Source of the DNA: Microgenomates group bacterium RBG_16_45_19
GTDB lineage: Bacteria > Patescibacteriota > Microgenomatia > UBA1400 > RBG-16-45-19
NCBI GenBank assembly: GCA_001803415.1
Contig: MHDC01000014.1
Location: 1-40,659 of the forward strand
Length of the DNA: 40,659 bases
Direction of reading: 5' to 3'
Under the pieces are notes generated by a model. It was given only the letters and a program-made list of their open reading frames with translations, made no database searches and was not told the DNA's origin. The translations under genes and the position numbers were made by a program. Each line of letters starts with the position of its first letter. Position 1 is the first letter of the stretch. Positions 2,546 through 32,398 of the stretch are shown here, piece after piece.

Positions 2546-4990
2546 ATGGCCATTGCCAACGACTGGTTCGTCGACTACCAAAATAAGGTCATCGTCCACG
2601 CCACTACCGCCATCGCCTATGATGGCGAACTCAACACTTTTCAGGCTGGTCAGACCATTGGCAACGCTACTCCCACTCCGACCAAAACTGCCATCATCGT
2701 TTACGTCGATGACCAAGGCACCACCGGTACCTTAGATGTGGTTTACGTTAATGGCACTTGGGCTAACAACGACGAGATTTACGTTGGCGCTACTAAATAT
2801 GCCGATGTTAACGGCACTCCCGCCACCAAGTCCACGGTTTATACAGTTCGCGCCCTCTACTCCTTTGTCCAAGATACCTTTGATGAACTAGGGGCTATGG
2901 ATGACACCGTCCCCATGTCGGCCCAGACGCCCACCGAGTTCACCATGATCAATGGTTGGTTCATTGACGATGAATCCACCAAATACTTGTCCGGTGGTGC
3001 CATTTCCACTTCTGGTTATACCAGTGCCATCCAAGTCATTACTCACCAAGCCGGTGGTTATACCAACGCCGTCGCTACCGACATCGGCAAATCGGTTATG
3101 CAGGGCGCCACACCCCGGGGAACCCTGATCTACTACAACAACACTACCCGTAAATGGTGGAGCCGCTACGACACTCAGATATCGAGTGGGGTGGCGCTCA
3201 CCATTTCCAGCGGCACCGGTGCCGGCACTACTGCTGCCGCTTCCGACTCCGGCGAAGACCTCTTTGCCAATATCTATACCTTAGGTACCATCGTTACCGA
3301 TCCCAAACCCAAATCTTATGTCTTCCAAAACGGATCCGCCTTGGCGGAATGGTGGGGTCGGGGTGACTCTGAAGCCCACATTGACGTTTTAATCAAAGTC
3401 AAGGAAGCCGACGACGAAATCGACGGGGCCAACATTACCGCCTTTGTCCGCCACTTTGGTGACCTTTACGACCACTTCCCCATCGATCTGTCATCCGGCG
3501 GCCGCAACGCTGTCCCTCTGGCTACCTCGACCGATTTATCCAATAACAGCAGCGGCGAAGTGATTCTTTCGGTCACCAGTGCCACTGGCTTTGACGTGGG
3601 CAACTTCGTCCGCGGTGGTACCTCCGGAGCCTATGGTGAAATTCTGGCGGCCAGTACTTCCGCTTCTCCCAATACCTTGACCGTTGGCAACATCGTTGGT
3701 GCCACTACCTTTACCGACGCCGAAACCGTCTACGAAACCACCACCGGTTTAGCTGCCGGTGATACCGCCACTAATACCACCCTGACCGCGCCGCATAAAA
3801 CCAATGTGGTCGCCGGTTACAACGACATCAAAATCCTCTTCATGAACATCACCCTACCCTTTAACTCCGGGTCCGAAGAACCCACCGTCGGCGCCCATCT
3901 CCAAGGCGCCGTTTCCGGGGCTGATGCTTACTACATCAGTTCTTCCCTGACCTCTGGCAGTTGGACTGGCGGTACCGCCACCGGCACCATGTATTTGGCT
4001 AATTGGGACAGTGTTGCCTGGAACGCTTCCGAAGCCATCAATATTGTTGGCGGTTCTTCCGATATTGCCACCACTACCGGTACCCAAACCGTTACCGCTT
4101 CCGTCAACAAAGCCTTTGAACAAGGTACCGCTTACCCCTACAACATTGTCGTCTACTGCGCCAACCGCACCATGTCCCAAGTCTACGAGTGGTTTAAGTA
4201 TGTCACCCGCGAAGATGCCAATTCGACCCAACAAAACTACCAAACTATGTTCCGGGTCCATTCCGGCGCCATCGTTGAAGAAGACGGCGAAGAATATATC
4301 TATGCCCTATCCACTTACGCCCCGGTCAAAGCTTCGCCCTTTGGCACCTTGGCTGGTGGTAAACTCTTCGGCGCTCGGGGTGTCTGGGTCGAAGGCATGG
4401 CCACCGCCGATCGCCAGAACTTCTCCTTAATCGATGCTAATAACAATCCTCAAACCCCGCCTAACTTTATTACCATTACCGTTACTTCGGTCGTTTCCGG
4501 TGATAAAGTCTCGGTCTTTAGGACCAGCTCCAGCACCACCATTAACAAAATCCAGTTCACTTCCGGTCTCTCTAACGACCAAAGCGATGCCCAATTCTTT
4601 GTCTCTGAAACCATTCCTTCGGATACCCCCAACTCCGGTTTTATTAGGGTAGTCGACACTTCAGATACCTCGATCAATCGGGAAAAACGCTACGCTTATT
4701 CTGCTTGGAGTAACACCACCAGCTCCTTCACTCTCTCCGGTTCCACTGTTCTAGATCGTACCTACTCCGCCGGCGAGGACACCGCTTATGTTCCTTATTA
4801 TGATGAAATTGCCGGTAATACCTCTGTTTATGTCACCGTCATCTATAGCGCTGACCGTACCGTCTTAACCAGAGTCCGCCGTTATTCCGGGGCTGGCACC
4901 TCCATCCTGCCCTTCGAGATTACCGGCTCGGTTGTCTCTACCGGTTACTCCGTCGCCGCTATCCGCACTCTTGACACCATTGTCACCTAA
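2546..4990 (+). CDS. Phage-type fibre/structural protein, full length
   Basis: This 814-residue protein is the intact paralogue of the truncated gene at the window start. The N-terminus begins MAIANDWFVDY. A block near residues 105-145 (ALYSFVQDTFDE, then VPMSAQTPTEF and INGWFID) is of a type I know from uncharacterised virion proteins of environmental tailed phages. The middle is built of Thr/Ser/Gly-rich modules with TSGA and VSGA signatures. The C-terminal domain (about 600-814) shares SPFGT-AGG-FGARGVW and DTAYVPY with the first gene. It lacks a signal peptide and membrane segments. There is no Shine-Dalgarno sequence; a GATAAT 9 nt before the ATG suggests a leaderless message. It is probably a fibre, baseplate or virion decoration protein. 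Confidence 0.7.
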   Translation: MAIANDWFVDYQNKVIVHATTAIAYDGELNTFQAGQTIGNATPTPTKTAIIVYVDDQGTTGTLDVVYVNGTWANNDEIYVGATKYADVNGTPATKSTVYTVRALYSFVQDTFDELGAMDDTVPMSAQTPTEFTMINGWFIDDESTKYLSGGAISTSGYTSAIQVITHQAGGYTNAVATDIGKSVMQGATPRGTLIYYNNTTRKWWSRYDTQISSGVALTISSGTGAGTTAAASDSGEDLFANIYTLGTIVTDPKPKSYVFQNGSALAEWWGRGDSEAHIDVLIKVKEADDEIDGANITAFVRHFGDLYDHFPIDLSSGGRNAVPLATSTDLSNNSSGEVILSVTSATGFDVGNFVRGGTSGAYGEILAASTSASPNTLTVGNIVGATTFTDAETVYETTTGLAAGDTATNTTLTAPHKTNVVAGYNDIKILFMNITLPFNSGSEEPTVGAHLQGAVSGADAYYISSSLTSGSWTGGTATGTMYLANWDSVAWNASEAINIVGGSSDIATTTGTQTVTASVNKAFEQGTAYPYNIVVYCANRTMSQVYEWFKYVTREDANSTQQNYQTMFRVHSGAIVEEDGEEYIYALSTYAPVKASPFGTLAGGKLFGARGVWVEGMATADRQNFSLIDANNNPQTPPNFITITVTSVVSGDKVSVFRTSSSTTINKIQFTSGLSNDQSDAQFFVSETIPSDTPNSGFIRVVDTSDTSINREKRYAYSAWSNTTSSFTLSGSTVLDRTYSAGEDTAYVPYYDEIAGNTSVYVTVIYSADRTVLTRVRRYSGAGTSILPFEITGSVVSTGYSVAAIRTLDTIVT

Positions 4991-5046: not shown

Positions 5047-5571
5047 ATGGCCTACCTTTTTAACTATTACACCCAAATTATTGATGTCCTCTCCCCTCAA
5101 GTCGATGTTGATCTCAACGATTTAACCAACAACATCCGGGCGGCCGAATTCAACGACATCGGTATGGGCTACCCTAAAATCTGCGACGCTTCCGGTAAAG
5201 ACAACTTAGGCGGCGGTATCTACACCGGCATTGTGCTTTATCTCTACCCCAACTGGCAATTACGCTTTTGGGAAGGCACCTATACCGCCACTGTCAGGGG
5301 GGGGAATATCTTGGGCGGTTTAAACAATCAACCGATTGCTTACGTACCCGGAGTCTTAGTCCAAATCATCCAATCGGCTTCTTCCACCTTAGTTTACGGC
5401 ACTGGCGGTTTAACCGAAGCCGAACACGACAAGTTAATGACCGGCCTGGACATTACTATTCCCGATGGTGTTTGGGACGAGCTTTTAGCCGGCCATACCA
5501 TTTCTGGCTCGGCCGGCCGTGAACTCGTTCAAGCTCGCCGCAAAGCCACTTTGGCTTCACTTAAGAAATAA
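5047..5571 (+). CDS. Phage-type structural protein with VWDELL...GSAG motif
   Basis: The protein has 174 residues. A beta-rich region (about 40-125: GMGYPKI, GKDNLGGGIYTGI, a Trp-containing strand pair, then GGN..GG) precedes a GLTEAEHDKLM stretch and a C-terminal VWDELLAGHT...GSAGRELV motif. This combination is familiar from uncharacterised proteins near tail-fibre genes of tailed phages, where the VWDE...GH...GSAG segment probably forms a helical, oligomer-forming tail. The message looks leaderless, with TATAAT 6 nt before the ATG. It is the last recognisably phage-like gene of the group. The exact virion role is unknown. Confidence 0.65.
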   Translation: MAYLFNYYTQIIDVLSPQVDVDLNDLTNNIRAAEFNDIGMGYPKICDASGKDNLGGGIYTGIVLYLYPNWQLRFWEGTYTATVRGGNILGGLNNQPIAYVPGVLVQIIQSASSTLVYGTGGLTEAEHDKLMTGLDITIPDGVWDELLAGHTISGSAGRELVQARRKATLASLKK

Positions 5572-5617: not shown

Positions 5618-5974
5618 ATGACCCAAAAACCAATAAGTTACGATTTAGAAGAACGAACTGCAAAATTTGGTGAAGCGATCATTCGACTTTGTCTAAGTCT
5701 ACCCGAAAGCAATATCACCAAATCCCTAATTAATCAGTTAGTTAGAGCCGCTACCAGTATCGGGGCAAATTACTGCAAGGCCGATGACTCCGAATCACCT
5801 AAAGACTTTAAACATAAAATCGGTATCGTAAAAAAAGAAACCAGAGAAACTAAACACTTCCTGCGCATGTTAGCTACCGCTCTACCAGACAGAAAAAATG
5901 AACTAAGACTTCATTGGCAAGAAGCTAAGGAACTAAACCTCATCTTCAACGCCATCTACCGGAAGCTAAAATAA
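5618..5974 (+). CDS. Four-helix-bundle protein (23S rRNA intervening-sequence protein family)
   Basis: This 118-residue all-alpha protein has the family's hallmarks: an N-terminal DLEERTAKFGEAI helix, an LINQLVRAATSIGANY helix, an EA/ES-KDF-HKI-I-KKE-RET helix and a final helix ending in L. This family is encoded in 23S rRNA intervening sequences of several bacteria and also, very often, at free-standing sites. The DGR accessory protein Avd has the same fold. Its biochemical role is unknown; RNA binding has been proposed for relatives. Here it is not in an rRNA gene. It lies between AT-rich 9-bp arrays of opposite orientation (5579-5610 and 5988-6034) that could pair in a transcript, separating the phage-like module from the glycan cassette. 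Confidence 0.85.
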   Translation: MTQKPISYDLEERTAKFGEAIIRLCLSLPESNITKSLINQLVRAATSIGANYCKADDSESPKDFKHKIGIVKKETRETKHFLRMLATALPDRKNELRLHWQEAKELNLIFNAIYRKLK

Positions 5975-6034: not shown

Positions 6035-6931
6035 ATGAAGTTGACTCTCGCCCTTCCTTTCTTCAACCAGCTCGATTCGGTTAAGGGCATCTTGGGTTTA
6101 CTTAAACTGGTTACCTCTCCTAACGTCGAGTGGCTCATCATTGACAACGGCTCCACCGATCCGGTCGAAAGTTTTTTTCGCGACACCCTCCGTCCACCCC
6201 GCTTGCGCTACGTTCGCAACTCCGCCAACCTCGGCATGGTCAAAACCTATAATCAGATCTTTCAACTAACCCAAACCGACCTGGTGGCGATCATCCACAA
6301 CGACGTTTACATCTATGAACCAAGCTGGGATAAAAGAGTCAAAAAAATGTTCAAAAATATCCCTAAACTCGGCTCTTTGGGCTTTTTTGGCTCTCAAGGT
6401 GTTGGCCCCATTGGTGAACGCCTCCAGGATCCTGAATTACCTGGCCAAATGGCTGGCATCAGTCAACTATTAGAAGCTGACCGCCATGGTATCAGGTTAC
6501 TCAATGACTATAGACCGGCCGCCATCCTCGACGGCTTCGCTATGGTCTTTGCCATGGCCATGATCCAGGCCGCCGGTGGTTTAGACCCCCACTATCACTA
6601 CCATCATCTCTACGACCGCGATCTCCCCTTAACCTCGCTGGCCTTGGGTTACCAAAACGTCGTTTTAAATATCCCCTGCCATCACCAATCCGGGGTCACC
6701 GCCAATCGCCCCGAGTATCAAACCTGGATTAATCAGGTCACCGGCCGAAAACAAGGGGACGCTTGGACCCACGACCAAAACACCCACTACTTCAAACAGA
6801 AATGGGCCAAAGTTCTCCCCCTCTACGTTGAAACCGATTTCTCCTTTCGGACCGGCACTAAAAATGGCTGGACGTATAAGGGAGATGCTATACTCAGCTT
6901 GAAATCACCAAGCAGGGTTATTGGATATTAG
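6035..6931 (+). CDS. GT2-family glycosyltransferase
   Basis: This 298-residue GT-A fold enzyme transfers a sugar from a nucleotide sugar. It shows the N-terminal beta-alpha unit (LALPFFNQ), the nucleotide-binding IIDNGSTD at 35-42, and HNDVYI at 88-93 in the place of the metal-binding DXD. An acceptor-side DGFAM stretch follows near 165, then a YDRDLPLT segment near 195. There is no membrane helix, so it should work in the cytoplasm or at the inner face. It is the first gene of a six-gene cassette that is nearly all on one strand with short spacings. Donor and acceptor cannot be told. The start directly follows the 9-bp array. Confidence 0.85.
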   Translation: MKLTLALPFFNQLDSVKGILGLLKLVTSPNVEWLIIDNGSTDPVESFFRDTLRPPRLRYVRNSANLGMVKTYNQIFQLTQTDLVAIIHNDVYIYEPSWDKRVKKMFKNIPKLGSLGFFGSQGVGPIGERLQDPELPGQMAGISQLLEADRHGIRLLNDYRPAAILDGFAMVFAMAMIQAAGGLDPHYHYHHLYDRDLPLTSLALGYQNVVLNIPCHHQSGVTANRPEYQTWINQVTGRKQGDAWTHDQNTHYFKQKWAKVLPLYVETDFSFRTGTKNGWTYKGDAILSLKSPSRVIGY

Positions 6932-6936
6932 CTAAT

Positions 6937-7542
6937 ATGGCAAAACCCAGTTTACCCGGAGCCAAACGGCGGGGCCGTCCCCCCCAAAACCCCTGGGTGA
7001 CTGCCCTCTCCCTGGCCCAGACAGTCTCCGACCAATACGCCCTCACCGAAGCTGAACAATCCCTGGCTTTTAAGACCGCGCTGGTGCTTCGCCGGGGGGC
7101 CATTATCGTTGAACTCGGGGTCATGTATGGCCGTACCGCCATCATCTTAGCCTCTGCCGCCAAACTGACCGGGGCTCATTATCACGGTATCGATAACTTT
7201 AAGATGGGTTCATCACTTGCCGAGGTTGAGGCCAACTTGACCAAACTCGACCTTCAGGGTCAAATCCACCGGGGTGATACCTACACCATCAGGTGGTCCA
7301 AACCCATCGACTATCTCCTCATTGATGCCGGCCATGACGAAATGAATATGCGCCAAGACACTGCCCGCTGGCTGCCGCTCATTAATCCCGGTGGTCTAGT
7401 CCTCTTCCACGCCTACAATCCTGATATCGACTTTACCGATCCCCACTTCCCCGTCAAACGCTACGCCGACGAGCGTACTTTAGGTTGGACCCAAATCGCC
7501 TATATCCCTAACCTGCTCATCAAACAAAAACCCCTCACCTAA
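6937..7542 (+). CDS. Class I SAM-dependent methyltransferase
   Basis: The protein has 201 residues. Motif I VELGVMYGRTA (58-68) binds SAM, GIDNF (84-88) supplies the acidic residue for the ribose, and DYLLIDAGHD (125-134) with PGGLVLFHAY (151-160) match the Methyltransf_24-like family found in glycan clusters. Its place between two GT2 genes suggests O-methylation of a sugar or glycan chain end. The N-terminus carries KRRGRPP (10-16), an AT-hook-like motif unusual for a sugar methyltransferase; it may simply be a basic tail. The gene follows the previous stop by 5 nt and precedes the next start by 1 nt, which indicates co-transcription. Confidence 0.8.
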   Translation: MAKPSLPGAKRRGRPPQNPWVTALSLAQTVSDQYALTEAEQSLAFKTALVLRRGAIIVELGVMYGRTAIILASAAKLTGAHYHGIDNFKMGSSLAEVEANLTKLDLQGQIHRGDTYTIRWSKPIDYLLIDAGHDEMNMRQDTARWLPLINPGGLVLFHAYNPDIDFTDPHFPVKRYADERTLGWTQIAYIPNLLIKQKPLT

Positions 7543-7543
7543 C

Positions 7544-8239
7544 ATGGCTTCGCTTCTCTCGATCATCACCCCCAGCTACAATAAACATGAATACGTTCAA
7601 GCTACCATCAACAGTGTCTTAAACCAGTCCTTTACCGATTATGACTACTGGCTAATTGATAACAGCACCGATCAACTCACTCGCCCTCTCGTCAAAGCCA
7701 AAGCCCAAACCGACGCCCGCATTAAATATTTGGAAATCGATTTTACTCCCACCGAACGGACAACAGTCTACATCCCCGCCTATATCTTCAACCAAGTCAT
7801 CGCCGAAATCGATACCAAATATATTTTCTATCTCTCCGATGATGACCTGGTCTACCCCTCATGCTTGGCCCAAGTCATTGACTTTATGGAATCCGATCCG
7901 ACCAAATACTTCGTCTGTTACTTTACCCTGGACCGCCTTTACTGGCGCGACGGTGAATGGCTTAAAGATAGTTCGATTACCGTTAGCGGTCGGTTTGGTA
8001 AAGGCACGACTCACCCTTCGGTTGATTGTAAACTCGACGGCGGCCAAATCATCTTCCGTACCGATTGTTTAAAATCCCTGTCCTACCCTTTTGCTCCGGA
8101 AAATCTTCGCGATGCTTCTCACAGTGACGGTTTATTTATGGACCGCTTGGCCAAACATTACACTTTCTATCCCTTGCCCACCAACCAAGCCCTGATCGGC
8201 CATCGCCTCACCCCCAAGTCCACCTGGACCCGACCGTAA
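7544..8239 (+). CDS. GT2-family glycosyltransferase
   Basis: The protein has 231 residues. It has the classic N-terminal SIITPSYNK (6-14), SVLNQSF...DYWLIDNSTD (24-43) and a SDDD metal-binding motif (98-101, the DXD). The short C-terminal acceptor domain ends in RLTPKSTW without a membrane helix. It starts 1 nt after the methyltransferase stop, so it is coupled to it. Donor and acceptor are unknown. The full DXD makes this the most typical GT2 of the three. Confidence 0.85.
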   Translation: MASLLSIITPSYNKHEYVQATINSVLNQSFTDYDYWLIDNSTDQLTRPLVKAKAQTDARIKYLEIDFTPTERTTVYIPAYIFNQVIAEIDTKYIFYLSDDDLVYPSCLAQVIDFMESDPTKYFVCYFTLDRLYWRDGEWLKDSSITVSGRFGKGTTHPSVDCKLDGGQIIFRTDCLKSLSYPFAPENLRDASHSDGLFMDRLAKHYTFYPLPTNQALIGHRLTPKSTWTRP

Positions 8240-8279
8240 GCTGACTTGATATTTACGCTAATTCTTGTAGGTTTAAACC

Positions 8280-9830
8280 ATGACTCCACCAGTGGACCAA
8301 TCTTTAGCTTTATCCCTAAACCCTCTGACCGCCGCCGACATCGATCGCCTCCGTCGCTGGCGCAATCGCGTCCGCTCCGCTTTTGTCGACAGCCGTTATC
8401 TCACCAAAAAAGCCCAACGCCAATGGTATCGACAATACCAGAAAGACTCTTCTCAAAAAATTTACCTCATCAAAGCCAAGCGTCAGCCCATCGGGATTAT
8501 CGGTTTGAAATTAACGCCACCCACTAATCCCGATTTTGGTCCGGCTATCTTAGGTGATCTCACCTACGCTCGCCGGGGGGTGATGACCTGGGCTTACCGG
8601 GAGTTAATGCGCCTCCATCCGGCTCCCAAGTACCACGGCTTAGTCAAGAAATCCAACCCCAAAGCCTTAGCCCTTGATCTCAAAGTCGGCTTCCAGGTAG
8701 TCAAGACAGATCAAAAGTATTGGTATGTCGAATTTGACTCCATTAAACGGATCCCGGTTATTCCGCTCCTTAAACCCTCCCCCTCTCCCGCTGAAATTAA
8801 AGCCGTCAAACGCGTCCTCCAATCCAGCTGGTGGGGTTTAGGTCCGGTGACCGCTCAATTGGAAACCGCTTTTGCCGCTTTTGTCGGTACCACCTATGCC
8901 ATTGCCGTCAATTCCTGCAGTGCCGCCTTACATCTGTCAGTCCACATTCTCAGCCGTCGCTTCCCTAAAAAAACTAACCTGGTCACCACTCCCTTAACTT
9001 TTATCTCCACCGCTGCCGCCGGTCTCTATGAAAACCTCGAGGTTCGCTTTGGCGATATTGAAGAACAAACTCTATGCCTGGATCCTCAAGATGCCTTGGC
9101 CAAAGCTGACGCCCTAACTTTAACTATCATCCCGGTCCACTATGCCGGCATTTTAAGTCCTATCCCTCAAACCCCGCTCCCCATCATCGAAGATTGCGCG
9201 CATGCCGCCGGTACCCCCGGTGCCGGTCATTCTAGTCTCCTAGCCTGCTGGTCCTTCCACCCCGTCAAAAACATCGCCACCGGCGATGGCGGCATGATCA
9301 CCACTAATGACCGTCAGCTGGCCGCCGAACTCCGCCGTTTGCGTTGGCTAGGCATCGACCAAGATACCTGGGCTCGCGAACAGAAAGGTTACAATTGGGA
9401 ATACCAGATCCCTTCCTTAGGTTTTAAATACCACACCAATGACATCATGTCGGCAATTGCTCTTGAACAACTCAAACGTCTTCCCACTTTGAACCGCCGC
9501 CGCCGCCGTCTAGCTAAACGCTATCGCACTGGCCTCAAAGACTTACCGCTCATCCTGCCTCCGCCCTCGGGCAGCTGGCATCTTTACCCGATTCGTCTCC
9601 ACCGAGCTTCCCTTCGCCCTCGGTTAATCCAATACCTGCGCGACCATCATATTTCCGTCGGGGTTCATTACCAACCGTTGCATCACTACCCCTTCTTTAA
9701 TTGGCATCAACCCCTACCGGTCACCGACCGAGTCTACCCGACTCTCCTGGATCTACCCATCTTCCCCGATATGACTCTGGCTGAACAAGATTATGTCATT
9801 CACACCCTTCATGATTTTTATAACCTATGA
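8280..9830 (+). CDS. GNAT N-acetyltransferase fused to DegT/DnrJ/EryC1/StrS aminotransferase
   Basis: This 516-residue protein has two domains. Residues 10-152 are a RimL/PseH-like GNAT domain (RLRRWRN at 23-29, GIIGL at 72-76, then N-P-A and GF near the end). Residues about 160-516 are a PLP sugar aminotransferase with VNSCSAALHLS (210-220), EDCAHA (304-309), the PLP lysine K330 in FHPVKNI and GDGGMI (335-340). Together they would convert a keto-sugar nucleotide to an amino sugar and then acetylate it, as separate PseC/PseH or WecE/WecD pairs do. No dehydratase that makes the keto-sugar is in the window. The next GT overlaps by 4 nt, so the acetamido sugar may be its donor. The fusion order GNAT-then-DegT is unusual. 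Confidence 0.9.
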   Translation: MTPPVDQSLALSLNPLTAADIDRLRRWRNRVRSAFVDSRYLTKKAQRQWYRQYQKDSSQKIYLIKAKRQPIGIIGLKLTPPTNPDFGPAILGDLTYARRGVMTWAYRELMRLHPAPKYHGLVKKSNPKALALDLKVGFQVVKTDQKYWYVEFDSIKRIPVIPLLKPSPSPAEIKAVKRVLQSSWWGLGPVTAQLETAFAAFVGTTYAIAVNSCSAALHLSVHILSRRFPKKTNLVTTPLTFISTAAAGLYENLEVRFGDIEEQTLCLDPQDALAKADALTLTIIPVHYAGILSPIPQTPLPIIEDCAHAAGTPGAGHSSLLACWSFHPVKNIATGDGGMITTNDRQLAAELRRLRWLGIDQDTWAREQKGYNWEYQIPSLGFKYHTNDIMSAIALEQLKRLPTLNRRRRRLAKRYRTGLKDLPLILPPPSGSWHLYPIRLHRASLRPRLIQYLRDHHISVGVHYQPLHHYPFFNWHQPLPVTDRVYPTLLDLPIFPDMTLAEQDYVIHTLHDFYNL

Positions 9831-10594
9831 AACTGACTTTCGTCATCCCCGTCTACATCTCCAATGCTCTGCACTTGGATTTCACCCGCCAAACCCTCAA
9901 ATCCATCCAGACTTCCCATGACCATAAAGTGATTATCGTTAACAATTTCTGCGCTCCAGCCTTCCGACCGGACTTAGAGCGACTCGCGACCTGCGACTGG
10001 CAACTAGTGGATAATCCCAAGGGCAATATCCTAGCCTCCGCCTGGAATTTAGGAATCAAAATGTCTTTTAGTGGCGACGCCGGCAGCCCAAGCGATTATT
10101 GTCTCCTGCTTAACAATGACCTCATTCTCCATCCCAAATGCCTCGACAACTTGGTCACTTTTGCCACTAATCACCCAAAATTCCTGATCTGGTCGGCCTC
10201 AGAGTGGGCTAATGCCCGGACTCTCTCTCAGGCTAAAATGACTCAAAGTTTCTCCTTCCACCCCCACTTTTCCTGCTTTATGGTGGCCCCTAAAACCATT
10301 GAGGTAGTCGGTTACTTTGACGAGCACTTCACTATGGGCTATTTCGAAGACAATGACTACCACACCCGGATATTACATGCCGGTTACCAAGCCGCCGCTA
10401 CCAACTCGGCTAAGTTTTACCACTACGGCTCCCGCACCATCAACATTGACGACAATCTCAAGATCGAAGGTAAGTACCACTACCAGAAAAACCGGGCTTA
10501 CTTTGCTAAAAAATGGGGCGTCGACATCCACGGCCGCGCCTTCGACCCACCCGAAGCCATCCTTAAAGCCATCAAGCCGACTTCTTCCCCTTGA
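9827..10594 (+). CDS. GT2-family glycosyltransferase (WcaE/rhamnosyl-like)
   Basis: The protein has 255 residues, and its ATG overlaps the previous TGA as ATGA. Visible motifs are FVIPVY (5-10), HKVIIVNN (33-40), LNNDLIL (95-101) in the DXD position and YFEDNDYHTR (172-181), the catalytic-base motif typical of rhamnosyl/hexosyl GT2 enzymes. FYHYGSRT follows near 200. There is no membrane helix. Tight coupling to the aminotransferase-acetyltransferase fusion suggests it may use that gene's acetamido sugar, which is inference. Confidence 0.85.
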   Translation: MKLTFVIPVYISNALHLDFTRQTLKSIQTSHDHKVIIVNNFCAPAFRPDLERLATCDWQLVDNPKGNILASAWNLGIKMSFSGDAGSPSDYCLLLNNDLILHPKCLDNLVTFATNHPKFLIWSASEWANARTLSQAKMTQSFSFHPHFSCFMVAPKTIEVVGYFDEHFTMGYFEDNDYHTRILHAGYQAAATNSAKFYHYGSRTINIDDNLKIEGKYHYQKNRAYFAKKWGVDIHGRAFDPPEAILKAIKPTSSP

Positions 10595-10626
10595 ACCATT
10601 CTTCGCGATGCAGGATACTATTTCCC

Positions 10627-12102
10627 ATGCCAAAGACCTTAAAACCCACTCGTCGCATTAAAGTGCTCGCTTACGGTGACTCCCCCCTGGTGCCTTCCGG
10701 TTTCGGCACCGTCATGAAGAACCTCTTTTACTACCTGGGTAAAACCGAACGTTATGACATTGATCTTTTCGGCATCAATGACCGCGGCGGCTGGAAAGAC
10801 CCGCAGGCGTTCCCCTACCATGTCTACCAATCTATGCCTCCGGGTGAACAAGACCCTTACGGCCGTTCCCGCTTTGTCGACGTCCTCCGCGGTGGTGGTT
10901 TGGACCTCCAGCCACCGTGGGACCTGATTTTCTTTTTAAACGACCCCTTTGTCTTGGAAAACCCCATCCCCTACTTCAACCTCGGCACCCTCCCGGCCGT
11001 CCGCGATATCCAAAAAACTCACTACCTCAATTTGCCGCCGGACATGTGGTTCAAAACCCTCGGCTACTTCCCCATCGATTCCCCTGTTAAACCGCACTGG
11101 GTCCTCTCGGCCATTAATTTGGTCGATTACCCGGTCACCTACACTCGTTACGGCCAGCGGGAAATATTGAAGGCCGACAAACAGCTCGACCAACCCACCC
11201 GGGTCAAGGTTGTCCGGATCCCCCACGGCAATAATCCGGCCGATTTCTACCCCTTAAAAAAGGATTTGGTGCGACAATTTCGGCGCGATTTTTTCGGCGG
11301 TGCCGTTCGTGACGAGACTTTCTTAGTCATCGTGGTCGGCCGCAACCAAAGACGCAAAGACATCCCCCGAGCCATGATGGTCTTTAAAGAGCTTCAAAAG
11401 CGGCGGCCGGATTCTTTCCTCTACGTTCACGCCGAAGAACAAGAAGCCTGGGGTTCCCTGATCGAAACCGCCCTCCAGTTTGGCTTAAGGCAAGGGAAAG
11501 ACTGGAACTTCCCCAACGACTTTATTGCTACTAAAGGTTATCCGACTAATATTCTCAATGCCATCTTCAATGCCGCCGACGTCAATCTCTCCATGTCTCA
11601 AGGCGAAGGCTGGGGCTTACCCATCACCGAGGCGATGGCGGTTAAAACCATCAACCTCGCCCCCGCCCATACTTCTATCCCTGAATTGTTTCATCTGCCC
11701 GACATTAAAGATCCGGGATCTGTCTTGCGCTTAGATCCCGGATCTAAACTCCATCACTGGCGGGGCCTACCCATCGCCGCCGGCACCACTACTTCCGAAT
11801 GGATCTGCCACGGCTCACCCGATTTGGAACGGGTCCGGCCTCTGGCCAACGTCGATGACGCCCTCGCCAAACTCCTCTGGGTCTATGACCACCCGGAAAC
11901 CGTCAAAACCATCGAAAACCGGGCCTACCGTTGGATCTCTCGTTTAACCTGGGAAAAGGTGGCTCACCGGTGGGATCAACTCTTTCAAACTGCCTTTACC
12001 CAACTCGAACAGGAGCGGGCTCACCCAGAACGGCTCAAGAAAAAATGGGCTAAAATGAAAATTCCCTCCCGCCCCCACCCTTCAAATTTAACTCAAAGAT
12101 AA
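10627..12102 (+). CDS. GT4-family glycosyltransferase
   Basis: This enzyme of about 491 residues has a GT-B fold. The N-terminal domain begins KVLAYGDSPLVPSGFGTVM. The donor-binding C-terminal domain shows VVGRNQRRKDIPRA and the GEGWGLPITEAM motif (about 326-337) with the two Glu residues of the E-X7-E site. I chose the ATG at 10627. A TTG at 10591 overlapping the previous stop is possible but would add 12 atypical residues. The coding sequence contains a strong 13-bp inverted repeat (11709-11745). The stop lies 1 nt from the convergent toxin gene's stop. It closes the glycan cassette. Confidence 0.85.
   Translation: MPKTLKPTRRIKVLAYGDSPLVPSGFGTVMKNLFYYLGKTERYDIDLFGINDRGGWKDPQAFPYHVYQSMPPGEQDPYGRSRFVDVLRGGGLDLQPPWDLIFFLNDPFVLENPIPYFNLGTLPAVRDIQKTHYLNLPPDMWFKTLGYFPIDSPVKPHWVLSAINLVDYPVTYTRYGQREILKADKQLDQPTRVKVVRIPHGNNPADFYPLKKDLVRQFRRDFFGGAVRDETFLVIVVGRNQRRKDIPRAMMVFKELQKRRPDSFLYVHAEEQEAWGSLIETALQFGLRQGKDWNFPNDFIATKGYPTNILNAIFNAADVNLSMSQGEGWGLPITEAMAVKTINLAPAHTSIPELFHLPDIKDPGSVLRLDPGSKLHHWRGLPIAAGTTTSEWICHGSPDLERVRPLANVDDALAKLLWVYDHPETVKTIENRAYRWISRLTWEKVAHRWDQLFQTAFTQLEQERAHPERLKKKWAKMKIPSRPHPSNLTQR
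11709..11745. repeat. 13-bp perfect inverted repeat inside the GT4 gene
   Basis: The arms AGATCCGGGATCT (11709-11721) and AGATCCCGGATCT (11733-11745) are exact reverse complements with an 11-nt loop. Each arm is itself palindromic around one central base. The repeat encodes a duplicated DPGS motif in the protein. Confidence 0.8.
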
Positions 12103-12779: not shown

Positions 12780-13550
12780 ATGCCTGACGCCCACACCCAA
12801 AAAACCGCCAACCAGATTGCCCGCGACTTAACCTCCCTCAAACTCTCCCCTGAATCCCGCGCTGCCATGGAACGCTACCTGCCTTACTTGGATGAACTGA
12901 GACGCAAACTCTTTATCGTCCTCATTGTCTTTTTAATCATGGCCGTCATCGGCGCCCTCTTTTACAAACAAGTCCTCCTCTTTATCCTCGGTCGCTTCAA
13001 CCTGGAAGGCGTCAACATCGTCCTCACTTCCCCTTACCAGATTATCGAATTGGCCGTCCAAATCGGCTTGCTCCTCGGTTTGCTCACCGCCCTACCCCTG
13101 TTAATCTGGTATCTTATTGGTTTCTTAAGGCCCGCCCTCGAGCATGACGAGTTCAAAATCATCGTTTCCCTCCTCCCCCTCAGTCTGTTTCTCTTTATCG
13201 TTGGCTTTATGTTTGGCACCACCGTCATGAACGCCATTATCGGCATCTTCACCCACGCCACCAGCGAACTCAACCTCCAAAACCTCTGGGATGTCAGTCG
13301 CTTCTTCTCCCAAACCATGTTTATGGGCATGGCCATGGCCTTGGCCTTTCAATTTCCGATCATCCTGACCTTGCTCCTGCGCCTGGGTTTTATTGAGAAA
13401 CCGAAGCTCTATACTTACCGCCCAGTTATCTACGTCGCCATCCTCTTATTTGCCGTGATCATGCCTCCCACCGATATCTTTTCCTTGTTTATCCTCACCC
13501 TGCCCCTGTTTCTCTTGTTTGAATTGACACTGCTCTTGAATCGCACTTAA
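12780..13550 (+). CDS. tatC: Sec-independent protein translocase TatC
   Basis: This 256-residue, six-helix membrane protein is the receptor of the twin-arginine translocase that moves folded proteins across the membrane. Family marks are YLDELRRKL (36-44) before TM1, ALPLLIWYLIGFLRPALEHDE (104-124) containing the conserved Glu region, FQFPI (190-194), MPPTD (228-232) and P-LLFE (242-248). The N-terminus carries about 30 extra soluble residues. TATGAT at 12766-12771 lies 8 nt before the ATG with no Shine-Dalgarno sequence, suggesting a leaderless message. Three tatA genes follow on the same strand, so the whole translocase is encoded here. Confidence 0.95.
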   Translation: MPDAHTQKTANQIARDLTSLKLSPESRAAMERYLPYLDELRRKLFIVLIVFLIMAVIGALFYKQVLLFILGRFNLEGVNIVLTSPYQIIELAVQIGLLLGLLTALPLLIWYLIGFLRPALEHDEFKIIVSLLPLSLFLFIVGFMFGTTVMNAIIGIFTHATSELNLQNLWDVSRFFSQTMFMGMAMALAFQFPIILTLLLRLGFIEKPKLYTYRPVIYVAILLFAVIMPPTDIFSLFILTLPLFLLFELTLLLNRT

Positions 13551-13753: not shown

Positions 13754-13939
13754 ATGTTCCAAAATATCGGTACAGTCGAAATCCTGGTGATCGCCTTGGT
13801 CCTGATGATCCTCTTCGGCGCCAAAAAAATCCCCGAATTCGCCCGCGGCTTAGGTGAAGCCGGCTCCGAATTTAAAAAAGGTCTCAAAGGTGATCCCAAC
13901 CAGAAAAAAACTAACCAAGAACCTAAAAAAGACAACTAA
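13754..13939 (+). CDS. tatA: Twin-arginine translocase subunit TatA (copy 1)
   Basis: The protein has 61 residues. A short N-terminal membrane helix (about 5-20) is followed by the [17 protein letters not shown] hinge and amphipathic helix, then a charged Lys/Asn/Gln tail. TatA oligomers form the pore element recruited by TatC when a substrate is bound. The FGAKK-P pattern is the classical TatA/TatE signature. It is the first of three tandem paralogues. Confidence 0.93.
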
Positions 13940-14001: not shown

Positions 14002-14187
14002 ATGTTTAAAAATATCGGTGTTACAGAAATTATCATTATTTTAGTCGTCCTGATGGTGCTTTTCGGCGCCAAGAAACTCCCCGAATTTGCCCGCGGCCTA
14101 GGTGAATCCGGCCGAGAACTCAAAAAAGCCAGTAAAGAATTGCGCGAAGCTTTAACTGATGACGAAGAGAAAGAGAAAAAATCCTAA
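14002..14187 (+). CDS. tatA: Twin-arginine translocase subunit TatA (copy 2)
   Basis: The 61-residue paralogue has the membrane helix [12 protein letters not shown], then [23 protein letters not shown] and a Glu/Lys-rich tail (DDEEKEKKS). A strong AAAGGAGGTG ribosome binding site lies 8-10 nt before the ATG. It differs from copy 1 mainly in the acidic tail, so the copies may have different partner preferences. Confidence 0.93.
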
Positions 14188-14381: not shown

Positions 14382-14439
14382 ACCAAACCACTTCTCCCTC
14401 CCCTATGGACAGGGTAGACTAAAGGGAGATTGTGGTGGT
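14382..14439 (+). promoter_or_regulatory. Leader hairpin sequestering a ribosome binding site
   Basis: An imperfect stem of about 15 bp pairs ACC, ACCAC and TCTCCCT (14382-14399) with AGGGAGA, GTGGT and GGT (14423-14439). The 3' arm contains AAAGGGAG, the only Shine-Dalgarno-like site before the ATG at 14445. No T-run follows, so it is less likely a terminator. Confidence 0.45.
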
Positions 14440-14444
14440 ATTCT

Positions 14445-17159
14445 ATGATTCGACCTGCCCTAGCCAAAGCCATTATCAGTCTCCCCTTTTTGCTTGCACT
14501 GTTTCTTGTTTCTTGTTTCCTGTTTCCTGTTCAGGCCGCCGATTATCAGCCATGCACGGTGGACACTACCTGCCCGATAGGCGAATTCCTTTATGACGAC
14601 GAATACACACCCATTGCCACCGCCTCCTGTGCCTTAACCACCAAAGACCCGGCCGGCGCCGATCTCCTCACCGACGAACCCATGACCGCCAACAGCGACG
14701 GCTGGTATACCTACGACTTTGACGCCACCAGCCAAGCCTTGGGGCTTTACCGCAGTCAAATGTGTTGCACCTTTGCCAGCGACTTTCTCTGCTTGGATAA
14801 ATCCTTCGAGGTTATTCCCGAAACCTTCGTCGCTGGCGATATCGCTACCGCAGTCTGGGGCTACTCCGGCCGGACTCTGACCGGTTTTGGCTCATTAGTC
14901 GCTGACGTTTGGAATTATTCCAGCCGCTCCCTCACCTCCTTTGGCACACTGGTGACTAGTGTCTGGTCCAACTCCGAACGCACTCTTACCAGCCCCAACG
15001 CCGCCGACCTAGCCATGAAGGGTGACCTGACCAAACAAACCGAAAGCCTGCGCCATGAAATCCGCGATGAACTGGCCGATCTCGAAAACATCAACCTCGA
15101 CTACACCGACCCGGCTCTGCTTAAACAAATCTCTCGCCAAGTCGCCGAAAACCGCGACTTGTTAGAAGTTTTAGTCAACGAACCGATTGTCAAGTCATTT
15201 ATTGAGGAGGGTGAGATCCCCGATCTCTCAGCCAAGCTTAATCAAACTAAAACCGTGGTTAACGCCTTGTATGCCGGTGTCAAGCAGGCTGACTCCCGGG
15301 CTGGCCTCTTGGCTCTCAAACTGACCAAGCTCCCGGCCACCGAAGTCAGCGACGAACTCCAAAGTTTAGAAAACCTGCTCGGCGGTTCGGCCCAAACGGC
15401 TTCTCCCGACACCATCACCAGTAGTTTGGAATGGTTCAGTCAAGCCTGGGGCGGCGACTTGGTCGACAACTTGCTCCAAACCAACCAACAAGTCAGAAGC
15501 GGCCTCCACGCCGCCCGCCTCAGTGTTGAAGCCGGCCAATTTGAGGCGGCGGCTCTGGAACTTCAGCTAGCTCTGGATGCTTTCAACGACTTAAGTCAAG
15601 GCATCGGTGACGTCACCAACAGTGCCGCCGACCGCACTCTTTTTGGCAGACTTAAAGAAGTTCAAGCCCTCTCTATAGCCTTGGACCAGAACGAACAAGC
15701 CTTAGCTTCTCTCTTCTCTGACTGGAATACCGCGCCCGAGCCCGAACGCCACCGCCAACTCTCCCTGGTTAAAAAAGACGTCATCAAAGCCAACCGCCTG
15801 CCTCAAGCCGCCGACATCATCGAAGCCGCCACCAGCAAACCAGAAAACAAAGATAAAAATCAGGCTTTAAGTTTGCAGGCAGTCACCACCTTAAACCGTC
15901 TCCTCCTGGCCAAAATGGCCGGTCAGCCCCTTAAAGGCCTCTGGCTGGAAGAAGGCAGTATCGTCTTTAAAATCCTGATTACTAACCCGTCCGACCGTAT
16001 TAGCCAAACCGTTCCCGTCAATTATCTCCTCCCCCGGGAAGTTAAACCGGAAGCGATCATGGTCACTCCACCCGGTATCACCGTCGAGTACAACCCCGAC
16101 GAAGACGCCCTCTACGCTAAAGGCGAATTTGACCTCTTACCTGGGGAGACCAAAACCTTTGCCATTGAGGTCACCGATGTCTGGACCATTGACCCCAACG
16201 AAATTGCCAGCTTGCGCAGCCAAGCCGAAGAATTGATGAAACCGCTGGTCAAGACCGCCTTCTACGGCCAGGGTACCACCATTAAATCGGACATCGACGT
16301 TACCCTCAACAAACTCCAAGCCATCTCCAACAATGGTGTCACCCCCGAAGCCCGGATTAAAAACTACCGCGAAGCTCAGATCGAATTGGCCGGCGTTCGC
16401 GACAAACTCGATAAACTCAAAGATTTAGTGGCTCAAGCCGGTTCTTCCGGCACCATCTTCGGCTTTATTGGCGGTGTCCAGGCAGTGGCGGTTTGGGGGA
16501 TTATTATTATCTTTATTGCCGGCTTTGTCTTCTTAACCCTGTATATGCGTAGTTTAAGAATTCATGACGCTCGCCCGGCTTCAACCGCCGCCGTCAGCAA
16601 ACTCCCCCACCTCAGCCTGCCGATCTTTAATCCGGCCAAGGCTCTTAAAGACACCCCCCGGCCCCGCGCCCCCCGAAAAAGCGTTCTAGGTAGCGGCCGT
16701 CTGGCCATCAGTGTCAGCCTGACTCCGGAGAATCTCAAAGCCACCCGCCTCTTCTTACTTTTAGTCGGAGTTTTAAGTTCCACCATCTTGATCATCATCG
16801 TCTTAACCTCGGTCATCGGCCGGACTCGACCTAATCTCTTAAGCCCTTCTAACCAACTGGCTGCAGTCGCCGTTCTTGAGGCTAGCCTGACTCCCCCCTT
16901 AGCCCCGCCGCCACCTACCCTAGAGGCCGCCACCTCCAACTCTACCCTGGCTCTTTTGGCTCCGCCCGACGATGACACGCCGGTTAACCTCCGGGCCGAG
17001 CCCGACACCGCCGCCCCCCTGATCCAAAAACTCTCCGCCCCGCTCTCCCTAACCGTCCTCTCTCTCGAAGAACCTTGGGCTGAAGTTGAAGTTATCGTCG
17101 ACGGCCAAACTCTCACTGGTTACCTCCACACCGACTACCTGGAATTTGTCTCGCCCTAG
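14445..17159 (+). CDS. Secreted/anchored membrane protein with phage-fibre-like repeats and SH3-like C-terminus
   Basis: The protein has about 904 residues. A Sec-type signal peptide (1-32) has its hydrophobic core encoded by a 7-bp repeat. A Cys-containing domain follows (about 34-130: PCTVDTTCP, DGWYTYDF, MCCTF). Three 18-residue repeats (about 136-190) read VWGYSGRTLT, VWNYSSRSLT and VWSNSERTLT, a pattern known from phage tail fibres. Long helical segments (190-500), a beta domain (about 510-590), TM helices (about 681-703 and 769-792) and a C-terminal SH3b-like domain (about 842-902: VNLRAEPD...GYLHTDYLEF) complete it. I chose ATG 14445; a TTG at 14430 leaves no room for a ribosome binding site. 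Function is unknown; an envelope scaffold or surface adhesin is plausible. Confidence 0.75.
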   Translation: MIRPALAKAIISLPFLLALFLVSCFLFPVQAADYQPCTVDTTCPIGEFLYDDEYTPIATASCALTTKDPAGADLLTDEPMTANSDGWYTYDFDATSQALGLYRSQMCCTFASDFLCLDKSFEVIPETFVAGDIATAVWGYSGRTLTGFGSLVADVWNYSSRSLTSFGTLVTSVWSNSERTLTSPNAADLAMKGDLTKQTESLRHEIRDELADLENINLDYTDPALLKQISRQVAENRDLLEVLVNEPIVKSFIEEGEIPDLSAKLNQTKTVVNALYAGVKQADSRAGLLALKLTKLPATEVSDELQSLENLLGGSAQTASPDTITSSLEWFSQAWGGDLVDNLLQTNQQVRSGLHAARLSVEAGQFEAAALELQLALDAFNDLSQGIGDVTNSAADRTLFGRLKEVQALSIALDQNEQALASLFSDWNTAPEPERHRQLSLVKKDVIKANRLPQAADIIEAATSKPENKDKNQALSLQAVTTLNRLLLAKMAGQPLKGLWLEEGSIVFKILITNPSDRISQTVPVNYLLPREVKPEAIMVTPPGITVEYNPDEDALYAKGEFDLLPGETKTFAIEVTDVWTIDPNEIASLRSQAEELMKPLVKTAFYGQGTTIKSDIDVTLNKLQAISNNGVTPEARIKNYREAQIELAGVRDKLDKLKDLVAQAGSSGTIFGFIGGVQAVAVWGIIIIFIAGFVFLTLYMRSLRIHDARPASTAAVSKLPHLSLPIFNPAKALKDTPRPRAPRKSVLGSGRLAISVSLTPENLKATRLFLLLVGVLSSTILIIIVLTSVIGRTRPNLLSPSNQLAAVAVLEASLTPPLAPPPPTLEAATSNSTLALLAPPDDDTPVNLRAEPDTAAPLIQKLSAPLSLTVLSLEEPWAEVEVIVDGQTLTGYLHTDYLEFVSP
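14501..14534. repeat. 7-bp tandem array in the signal-peptide coding region
   Basis: GTTTCTT occurs twice and GTTTCCT twice in tandem, followed by a partial unit. Read in frame it encodes the Leu/Phe/Val hydrophobic core of the signal peptide. Confidence 0.75.
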
Positions 17160-30949: not shown

Positions 30950-32398
30950 CTATTCTCCCCAAAACCACCACATCAACCGCCAGTCGTTCAAATCAACCAG
31001 GCAGCCACCGGCTACGGACATCAAGCAATATTCGGTCCCGAAGTGGTTAAGCATCAACCGCCAATCGATAAAATCCATATCCCCGTCATGATCCAAATCC
31101 ACCATGGTTATCGCCGGCCGGGCATAATAATTTATCTCCCCCTCCAGAATCCGCTGGGATACCGGATTAAAATAGACCGCCTTGAGTTCCCGCATGATAC
31201 TGCTGGCAGTCGACCGATACCAATTTTGATACAAACATCCTTGAGGTAGGTCACTGCCGGCCAACCCCTCCCAGGCAGCCACCGGCCCTGGCTGGGGACT
31301 GCAATTGCGTTGGATCCCTCCCAAAGGCCCCTGGCCAAAGATGACGTACTCGTCCACCAGGTGACCTAAAACATGCCCCAACTCATGCACAAACACCGCC
31401 GGACCCTGCTGGCCGTTATAAGCCGTCACCACCGAAGTCGCCGAGCCGCCGTAATTGGGATTATTAACGATCACCACCACCACATCAGCCGGCGCCCCGG
31501 CACTATTCACCGCCTGCCACACTTTAGCTTCATCACACAAGATCAACCGGGGATTGGCGGGCAAGTATTGGCAACCCAAATCGATCTGATTATTAATCCG
31601 GTGGAACACCAGTTGATAACTTCTTGAGGCAAATGGTTCATACTTAACTAATTCATTGCTAAAACGCTGACTGTCACTCTGAAACTGCTGGTCAGTGTCA
31701 TAACCTGCCCCAATGAAAGTCAGATCAACCGTTTGCTCCGCCACCGGCAAAGCCCCAGCCGGTGCCAAGACTACCTCCCCGCTCCGCAATAACTGCTCCA
31801 AGCGGACTTGATTCGCCCCTTTGGTCTCAAAGTCCTTGGCTGGCTCGACTACCGCCACCTTCTCCAGTGGCCACCGCCCCCGGCTCTCTCCACTCATTGT
31901 CTCGACCGCCACCTCCGTGGCCTGAGTTAAGTCGGGTAACACCACCACCAGTCGTCCCTCGCTCGGGTTATAAGGCACGATCGTTTCTCCCTCCAGCGGG
32001 GGGGGGTCCAGAATCGCCTCCACTATCCCCACCTTTAAGCCATAAAGTTTGGCGCCGCTGGCATCCAGTAACAAAACCAAATGACTCCCGTCTTTGGCTG
32101 GAAAAGTGGGATAACCCTGTAACCGCCTCAAACCTGCCAACCGCCATGGATCCTGATGTTTAGGTCCATAAACCAGGGTGGCTTCGATCACTCCTTGAGG
32201 CGTATCGACTTTCTCTGCCTGGAGCGCCTCATCCGCCGTCAACCAGCTTTCGGCTGCCGGCGCCTCCTCGAGCGGCCGGGAGCGAATCCGCCGATCAGTC
32301 ACTCGATACCCCCAAGCCAGCATGGCCAATAAGGCCGTCGCCGCGACCACTAGACTCAATCCCATCCATGACCGGTATCGCTGTCTCATCTCCCTCAT
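30950..32398 (-). CDS. M64-type (IgA-peptidase-like) zinc metallopeptidase with dockerin-like tail
   Basis: The protein has 482 residues. An N-terminal membrane anchor (about 13-30) is followed by a beta-rich region and a metzincin-like catalytic domain with HELGHVLGHLVDEY (338-351: H338, E339, H342, D349), the M64 pattern. Just before it a VVVVIVNNPNYGGSA strand and TAYNGQ support the family. Four Cys residues near the active site may form disulfides. The C-terminus (about 432-478) has VDLDHDGDMDFIDWRLML and a second LNDWRLM unit, a dockerin-like calcium-binding pair. It should be a surface-anchored protease that cuts extracellular proteins. Confidence 0.82.
   Translation of the reverse strand: MREMRQRYRSWMGLSLVVAATALLAMLAWGYRVTDRRIRSRPLEEAPAAESWLTADEALQAEKVDTPQGVIEATLVYGPKHQDPWRLAGLRRLQGYPTFPAKDGSHLVLLLDASGAKLYGLKVGIVEAILDPPPLEGETIVPYNPSEGRLVVVLPDLTQATEVAVETMSGESRGRWPLEKVAVVEPAKDFETKGANQVRLEQLLRSGEVVLAPAGALPVAEQTVDLTFIGAGYDTDQQFQSDSQRFSNELVKYEPFASRSYQLVFHRINNQIDLGCQYLPANPRLILCDEAKVWQAVNSAGAPADVVVVIVNNPNYGGSATSVVTAYNGQQGPAVFVHELGHVLGHLVDEYVIFGQGPLGGIQRNCSPQPGPVAAWEGLAGSDLPQGCLYQNWYRSTASSIMRELKAVYFNPVSQRILEGEINYYARPAITMVDLDHDGDMDFIDWRLMLNHFGTEYCLMSVAGGCLVDLNDWRLMWWFWGE

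Follow-up and report, generated by a model that had tools for sequence, protein, structure and literature searches.

The window examined here, a 40,659-nucleotide stretch of the Microgenomates group bacterium RBG_16_45_19 (contig MHDC01000014.1), encodes a predicted membrane protein that combines repeats of the form VWxYxxRTLT with a position directly beside tat genes. A preliminary description of the sequence had read this gene as a host envelope protein into which virion fibre modules were recruited, perhaps for attachment to another cell. The recognition and holding of partner cells by Patescibacteria is largely an open question, and the locus raises it in a specific form: where do the repeats come from, which genes travel with them, and what might such a protein do at the cell surface?

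Architecture of the anchor protein

The open reading frame spans 14430..17159 from a TTG start; the coordinates 14445-17159 of the preliminary description are correct, because an in-frame ATG at 14445 encodes 904 amino acids (Table 1). We aligned the protein, here called the anchor (family VWfam), in 18 rows that include full-length relatives from 17 other loci. Its domains run from a signal peptide through a Cys-rich Ig-like domain, three VWxYxxRTLT repeats, a helical stretch and a second domain to two transmembrane segments (TMs) and a weak SH3b domain. The Sec signal and paired TMs proposed earlier coincide with three hydrophobic segments. The SH3b end proposed alongside them stands less firmly, in that Pfam SH3_3 matches with an E value of 1.1e-4 but a score of 22.7 bits, below the curated cut-off of 27. 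Searches of Pfam, PHROG and NCBIfam returned no useful match to the N-terminal region. Self-matches of 27-29 bases in the DNA of the signal-peptide stretch were set aside.

Table 1. Features of the window at and upstream of the anchor gene, with the basis for each assignment.
Feature	Position	Strand	Basis
Second P814-family protein, cut by contig start	1..1656	+	Family match, tree
P814-family phage structural-type protein	2546..4990	+	Family match, phage synteny, tree
P174/FFKY-family phage tail-type protein with C-terminal VWDE unit	5047..5571	+	Family match, phage synteny, structure match
tatC	12780..13550	+	Pfam PF00902, E 2.5e-38
tatA copy 1	13754..13939	+	Pfam PF02416, E 2.7e-16
tatA copy 2	14002..14187	+	Pfam PF02416, E 5.5e-18
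tatA copy 3, 55 aa	14203..14370	+	Sequence
VWfam membrane anchor protein, 904 aa	14445..17159	+	Full-length relatives aligned
Sec-type signal peptide, ~residues 1-31	14445..14537	+	Hydrophobic segment 1-34; cleavage after VQA judged by eye
Cys-rich Ig-like beta-sandwich, ~residues 32-125	14538..14819	+	AlphaFold2 pLDDT, fold matches
VW repeat 1 (VWGYSGRTLTGFGSLVAD)	14853..14906	+	VW motif, 18-residue period, repeat profile
VW repeat 2 (VWNYSSRSLTSFGTLVTS)	14907..14960	+	VW motif, 18-residue period, repeat profile
VW repeat 3, truncated (VWSNSERTLTS)	14961..14993	+	VW motif, 18-residue period, repeat profile
Conserved second domain (WLEEGSIVFK...), residues 500-583	15942..16193	+	Dense invariant columns in alignment; beta nature by eye
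TM1, strongly conserved (GFxGGVQxVAVWGI), hydrophobic segment 669-706	16449..16562	+	Alignment and hydrophobicity
TM2, hydrophobic segment 764-794	16734..16826	+	Hydrophobicity
SH3b-like domain, under Pfam cut-off	16983..17144	+	Pfam SH3_3

Residues 137, 155 and 173 mark the starts of the three VW motifs, which thus have exactly the 18-residue spacing that was first described. At an offset of 18, residues are identical in 19 of 36 columns, far more than chance would give: none of 20,000 shuffles attained this level, and no other period between 8 and 59 scored as high.

Cysteines lie at positions 37, 43, 62, 107, 108 and 116, with one more within the signal peptide. Structure prediction, which the preliminary description had suggested as a check, gave a clear answer for the Cys domain, a confident AlphaFold2 beta-sandwich (block-mean pLDDT 86-98 over model residues 11-100 and 96-98 over 11-90), but not for the repeat region, which was modelled at low confidence as short helices. 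Among the fold matches to the Cys-domain model are viral models named for phage minor tail proteins, baseplate proteins and BppU, a possible likeness to the N-terminal domain of that baseplate protein. However, the fold also matches macroglobulin-type domains and others of Ig-like fold, which rank high among the solved structures (best Z overall 10.1), and an Ig-like fold of this kind is common to many proteins. A search of viral contigs with the domain found no match, profile comparison with viral proteins was weak (hhalign probability 22% against phage N-terminal domains, with a reversed control at 0.1%), and no BppU_N-type Pfam match was found in the anchor. The earlier claim that the Cys domain resembles phage tail-fibre sequence is therefore not upheld at the sequence level.

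The VW repeats recur in proteins of tailed phages

We used the repeat alignment to scan IMG/VR and obtained 86 pattern matches, from which 78 loci were confirmed. A regular expression located 71 repeat ORFs on 70 of these, and the remaining eight loci, which yielded no repeat ORF in this way, were left out. The viral ORFs carry one to seven copies of the motif, commonly at 18-residue spacing, and several also contain VWDE units. The likeness to phage proteins, for which a profile search had been proposed, was borne out: the 18-row profile of the host repeat region matches 70 of the 71 viral ORFs (E <= 1e-3, Z = 6e7; best 2.7e-47), with no match among shuffled versions of the same ORFs (five shuffles each). 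The repeats sit in many phage proteins having different N-terminal domains. In proteins such as L044, L052 and L105 they take the form VWxYxxRTLTSFGTLVADIW and follow an N-terminal domain in the same 18-residue register as in the anchor, in some cases accompanied by VWDE. Unlike the anchor, the phage proteins show no TM or SH3b that we noticed, and they are encoded in the vicinity of genes for packaging, head and tail.

The viral carriers of the repeats are real tailed phages. ORFs within ~6 kb of the repeat genes match terminase large subunit, portal, major head and head protease families (88 of the 140 listed ORFs, from 11 viral loci, were scanned, and these families are among the first 25 of 152 matched). 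PHROGs assigned a clear function to none of the 50 viral repeat ORFs scanned (of 71), so that the label 'tail fibre', though likely, is unproven. When the N-terminal region, the repeats, P174, P814 and a viral repeat segment were compared by tblastn with the 50,697 cultured-phage records of INPHARED, no significant match was obtained, and the phage link therefore rests on uncultivated contigs. On this comparison of sequences, the VWxYxxRTLT repeats of the anchor are homologous to modules of uncultivated tailed-phage proteins. The idea that virion fibre modules had been recruited is thereby supported in part: it may hold for the repeats, which phage proteins share, but the support extends neither to a phage origin of the Cys domain nor to the direction of transfer or a role in attachment, and 'tail fibre' is over-specific.

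Nor do the repeats prove to be a motif common among hosts, the possibility that the preliminary description had named as fatal to its own proposal. Matches were found in just five of 239 Patescibacteria genomes, four of them belonging to the anchor family (the window, G005, L213 and L214). The fifth, L215 (G236 contig 4, 1123-3084), is a separate surface protein of Patescibacteria. It has a signal peptide, followed by a related N-terminal domain of the GEFL type and many VW modules (including VWDVLTTSLTTVGSIG); its C-terminus appears dockerin-like by eye.

A conserved Tat locus

We compared 19 anchor loci: the window, G025 and 17 from named genome records (Levy-, Roizman-, Gottesman-, Davies-, Woese- and Beckwithbacteria, together with unplaced ones). 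The count includes the fragment L043 and excludes L213 and the divergent copy of G022 (L025), which has no Cys domain. The anchor lies beside tat genes in all 19 loci, in agreement with the tandem first described. TatA is present in every one, in 2-8 small copies, and TatC in 16; in 12 loci the nearest TatA is 0-8 bp from the anchor gene. The translocase is recognisable as Tat by its Pfam TatC and TatA families, but differs in this multiplicity of small TatA copies and in the frequent placement of one of them against the anchor gene. In a survey of 89 related genomes, the anchor was found in seven, TatC above cut-off in 12 and P814 in seven; G026 and G041, in which the SH3 end alone matched, were dropped from the anchor count. 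TatC is present in six of the seven anchor genomes against 12 of the 89 overall (hypergeometric p 1.0e-5, relatedness not corrected), and in the seventh, G016, the anchor lies at a contig end. Co-location of the anchor with Tat is a conserved Microgenomates locus.

Phage tail-type genes complete the picture. One or two of them, from the P814 and P174/FFKY families, are carried by 14 of the 19 loci (P814 by 11, P174/FFKY by 14), and the five loci with neither all lie on short contigs of 8.5-13.6 kb. We inspected 26 proteins, either of P814/FFKY type or encoded nearby, and saw no twin-arginine signal at their N-termini; an early KR or RR occurs in five of them, in no case ahead of a hydrophobic signal stretch as judged by eye, and the N-terminus of the anchor has no RR. 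The link between Tat and the fibres is therefore one of co-location. A census of Tat substrates with TIGR01409 was dropped, because the model also matched Tat-less genomes.

Several further genes were noted around these loci. In the window, a gene for a 23S rRNA-intervening-sequence-type protein (5618-5974) directly follows the VWDE gene; glycosyltransferases, a methyltransferase and an aminotransferase (6035-12102) separate the phage-type genes from tatC, and a predicted M64-type metallopeptidase with an end that looks dockerin-like is encoded at 30950-32398. By eye, glycosyltransferase-like genes also follow the tat genes in L224-L226. A small helix-turn-helix gene (of the AAKILGLSTNTTYKYLNEGRI type) occurs in several of L217, L220, L224, L225 and L226, and a membrane protein of ~155 aa (KEY...VLEAVVDPL type) in L217 and L220 as well as L033, L036 and L040.

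Phage tail-type neighbours and their exchange

The window starts at a contig end, and the locus is consequently cut off upstream. Two P814-family genes stand close together here, the first of which falls on a different tree branch, with L029_host2. The phage-type VWDE gene, placed about 9 kb away by the preliminary description, ends 8.9 kb upstream of the anchor gene. Relatives of P814 were found on 36 IMG/VR loci, some of them near-copies of each other, and 33 of these carry a P174/FFKY relative downstream on the same strand. Other ORFs on these phage contigs match major head protein, Neck1, tail tube, tape measure and HK97-gp10 (79 ORFs of five loci were scanned, from 124 ORFs of six, with one locus left out). 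The host loci keep the order used by the phages, P814 followed by FFKY. Foldseek returned three viral matches to the P174 model at E <= 0.001, and VIA-align no useful match. The repeat profile found no VWxYxxRTLT match on the 36 P814 phage loci, which suggests that the anchor repeats and the fibre genes may derive from different phages.

A VWDE unit is common to fibres and anchors. FFKY proteins terminate in this unit and a conserved KATLASLK-type tail, and a profile of the C-terminal unit matches 10 of the 18 aligned anchors (E 3.5e-10 to 1.1e-4), with 3 of 360 shuffles scoring at E < 0.1. The same search found no VWDE unit in the window's own anchor; docking via this unit therefore cannot be general.

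Phylogenies set the two components apart: the anchor follows host lineage, whereas P814 has been exchanged among lineages and is mixed with phage copies. In the anchor tree, made without the VW region, the four Roizmanbacteria-type anchors form one clade (100/100). The P814 genes of those same four are split, two grouping with the window and L033 (100/99) and two with L042 and L022 (100/98). A single clade was rejected both for the four Roizmanbacteria-clade P814 copies (p-AU 7.4e-43) and for the 11 main host copies (p-AU 0.0016), each group having been named after the tree was inspected. Mapping P814 type onto the anchor tree requires four changes over 11 typed rows. Host P814 copies are intermixed with viral ones, and under midpoint rooting the deepest branch is viral only.

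Discussion

The reading we favour, to which we assign a probability of about 0.5, is that the gene supplies the envelope anchor for a surface locus in Microgenomates (Patescibacteria), phage-derived and linked to Tat, that displays exchangeable fibres for adhesion. Homology, the locus and the exchange of P814 follow from the data above; docking, export and adhesion are the steps that we infer. Among the points in favour is purifying selection, which dN/dS values of 0.155/0.916 and 0.23/1.62 indicate for two of the seven pairs compared, the other five being saturated. The outer repeats of the anchor would derive from tailed-phage proteins. Following export by Sec, the protein would be held in place by its two TMs and the SH3b domain. 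Its VW modules may then act as joints on which co-encoded fibre proteins dock, as they possibly do in virions; a VWDE-type unit closes the C-termini of these fibre proteins. For folded parts, the likeliest export partner would be the Tat system next door, and the exchangeable fibres would bind other cells. More tentatively, these parts could amount to an undescribed Microgenomates surface system, consisting of a conserved anchor whose repeats serve as phage-type joints, a Tat translocase with multiple TatA copies dedicated to it, and a cassette slot at which phage tail-fibre genes are swapped between lineages, altering which neighbour cells are held.

The anchor might instead be a Tat-associated envelope protein outside any fibre display, the adjoining tail-type genes being prophage remnants or repeated insertions at a hot spot. 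Host P814 copies intermixed with viral ones would fit such insertions, as would relatives such as G036, G044 and G058, where TatC and several TatA occur and anchor or fibres were not seen. However, the same two genes, as long ORFs, recur in phage order in 11-14 of the 19 loci, the anchor itself bears phage modules, and neither terminase (PF03237) nor portal (PF04860) was found in any of the seven anchor host genomes, although each model matched just two of nine viral records. On balance we consider this explanation unlikely.

The VW repeats could also have moved in the opposite direction, as a host surface module acquired by phages for host attachment or mimicry. Their presence on uncultivated phage contigs only, with nothing significant among the cultured records, is compatible with such an origin, and so is L215, a second Patescibacteria surface protein that joins a related N-terminal domain to VW modules. 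The scarcity of the repeats in host genomes, set against the many phage proteins in which they accompany different N-terminal domains, and the viral-only deepest branch of P814 make this direction improbable. A further possibility is that the product of the locus is not anchored to the cell but is a particle resembling a phage tail and set free by lysis. This would suit fibre proteins that lack export signals, like virion proteins, but is very improbable given the signal peptide and two TMs of the anchor. In addition, genes for tube, sheath, tape measure or baseplate were not recognised in the host loci among the 25 PHROG families listed of 60 matched, from a scan covering 87 of 164 host ORFs.

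For an anchored fibre display of the kind we propose, a close comparison is with PblA/PblB of streptococcal prophages, in which, as outlined in PMC4508584, a protein of phage tail-fibre type serves as a bacterial surface adhesin; in S. mitis, lysis by the phage sets it free to bind other cells that are alive. PblB thus shows, on that outline, that a phage tail protein can act as an adhesin that reaches cells after lysis. PblA/PblB are prophage-encoded and are themselves the adhesin, whereas the anchor is a TM protein whose Tat locus has no recognised phage head gene. We found no published account of an anchor/Tat/fibre locus, including in the consulted portions of PMC12206443, PMC6509639, PMC4508584 and PMC5777986, with bioRxiv preprints outside the scope of the search.

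For the biology of these bacteria, the anchor gives the rare Tat system of the host order (12 of 89 genomes) a consistent neighbour. A conserved anchor with an exchangeable, phage-derived fibre slot would be a second, testable candidate for the holding of partner cells in this large uncultured group, and would tie partner range to the evolution of phage fibres. If this is true, exchange at the slot would shift the neighbour cells that can be held, much as fibre exchange shifts the host range of a phage.
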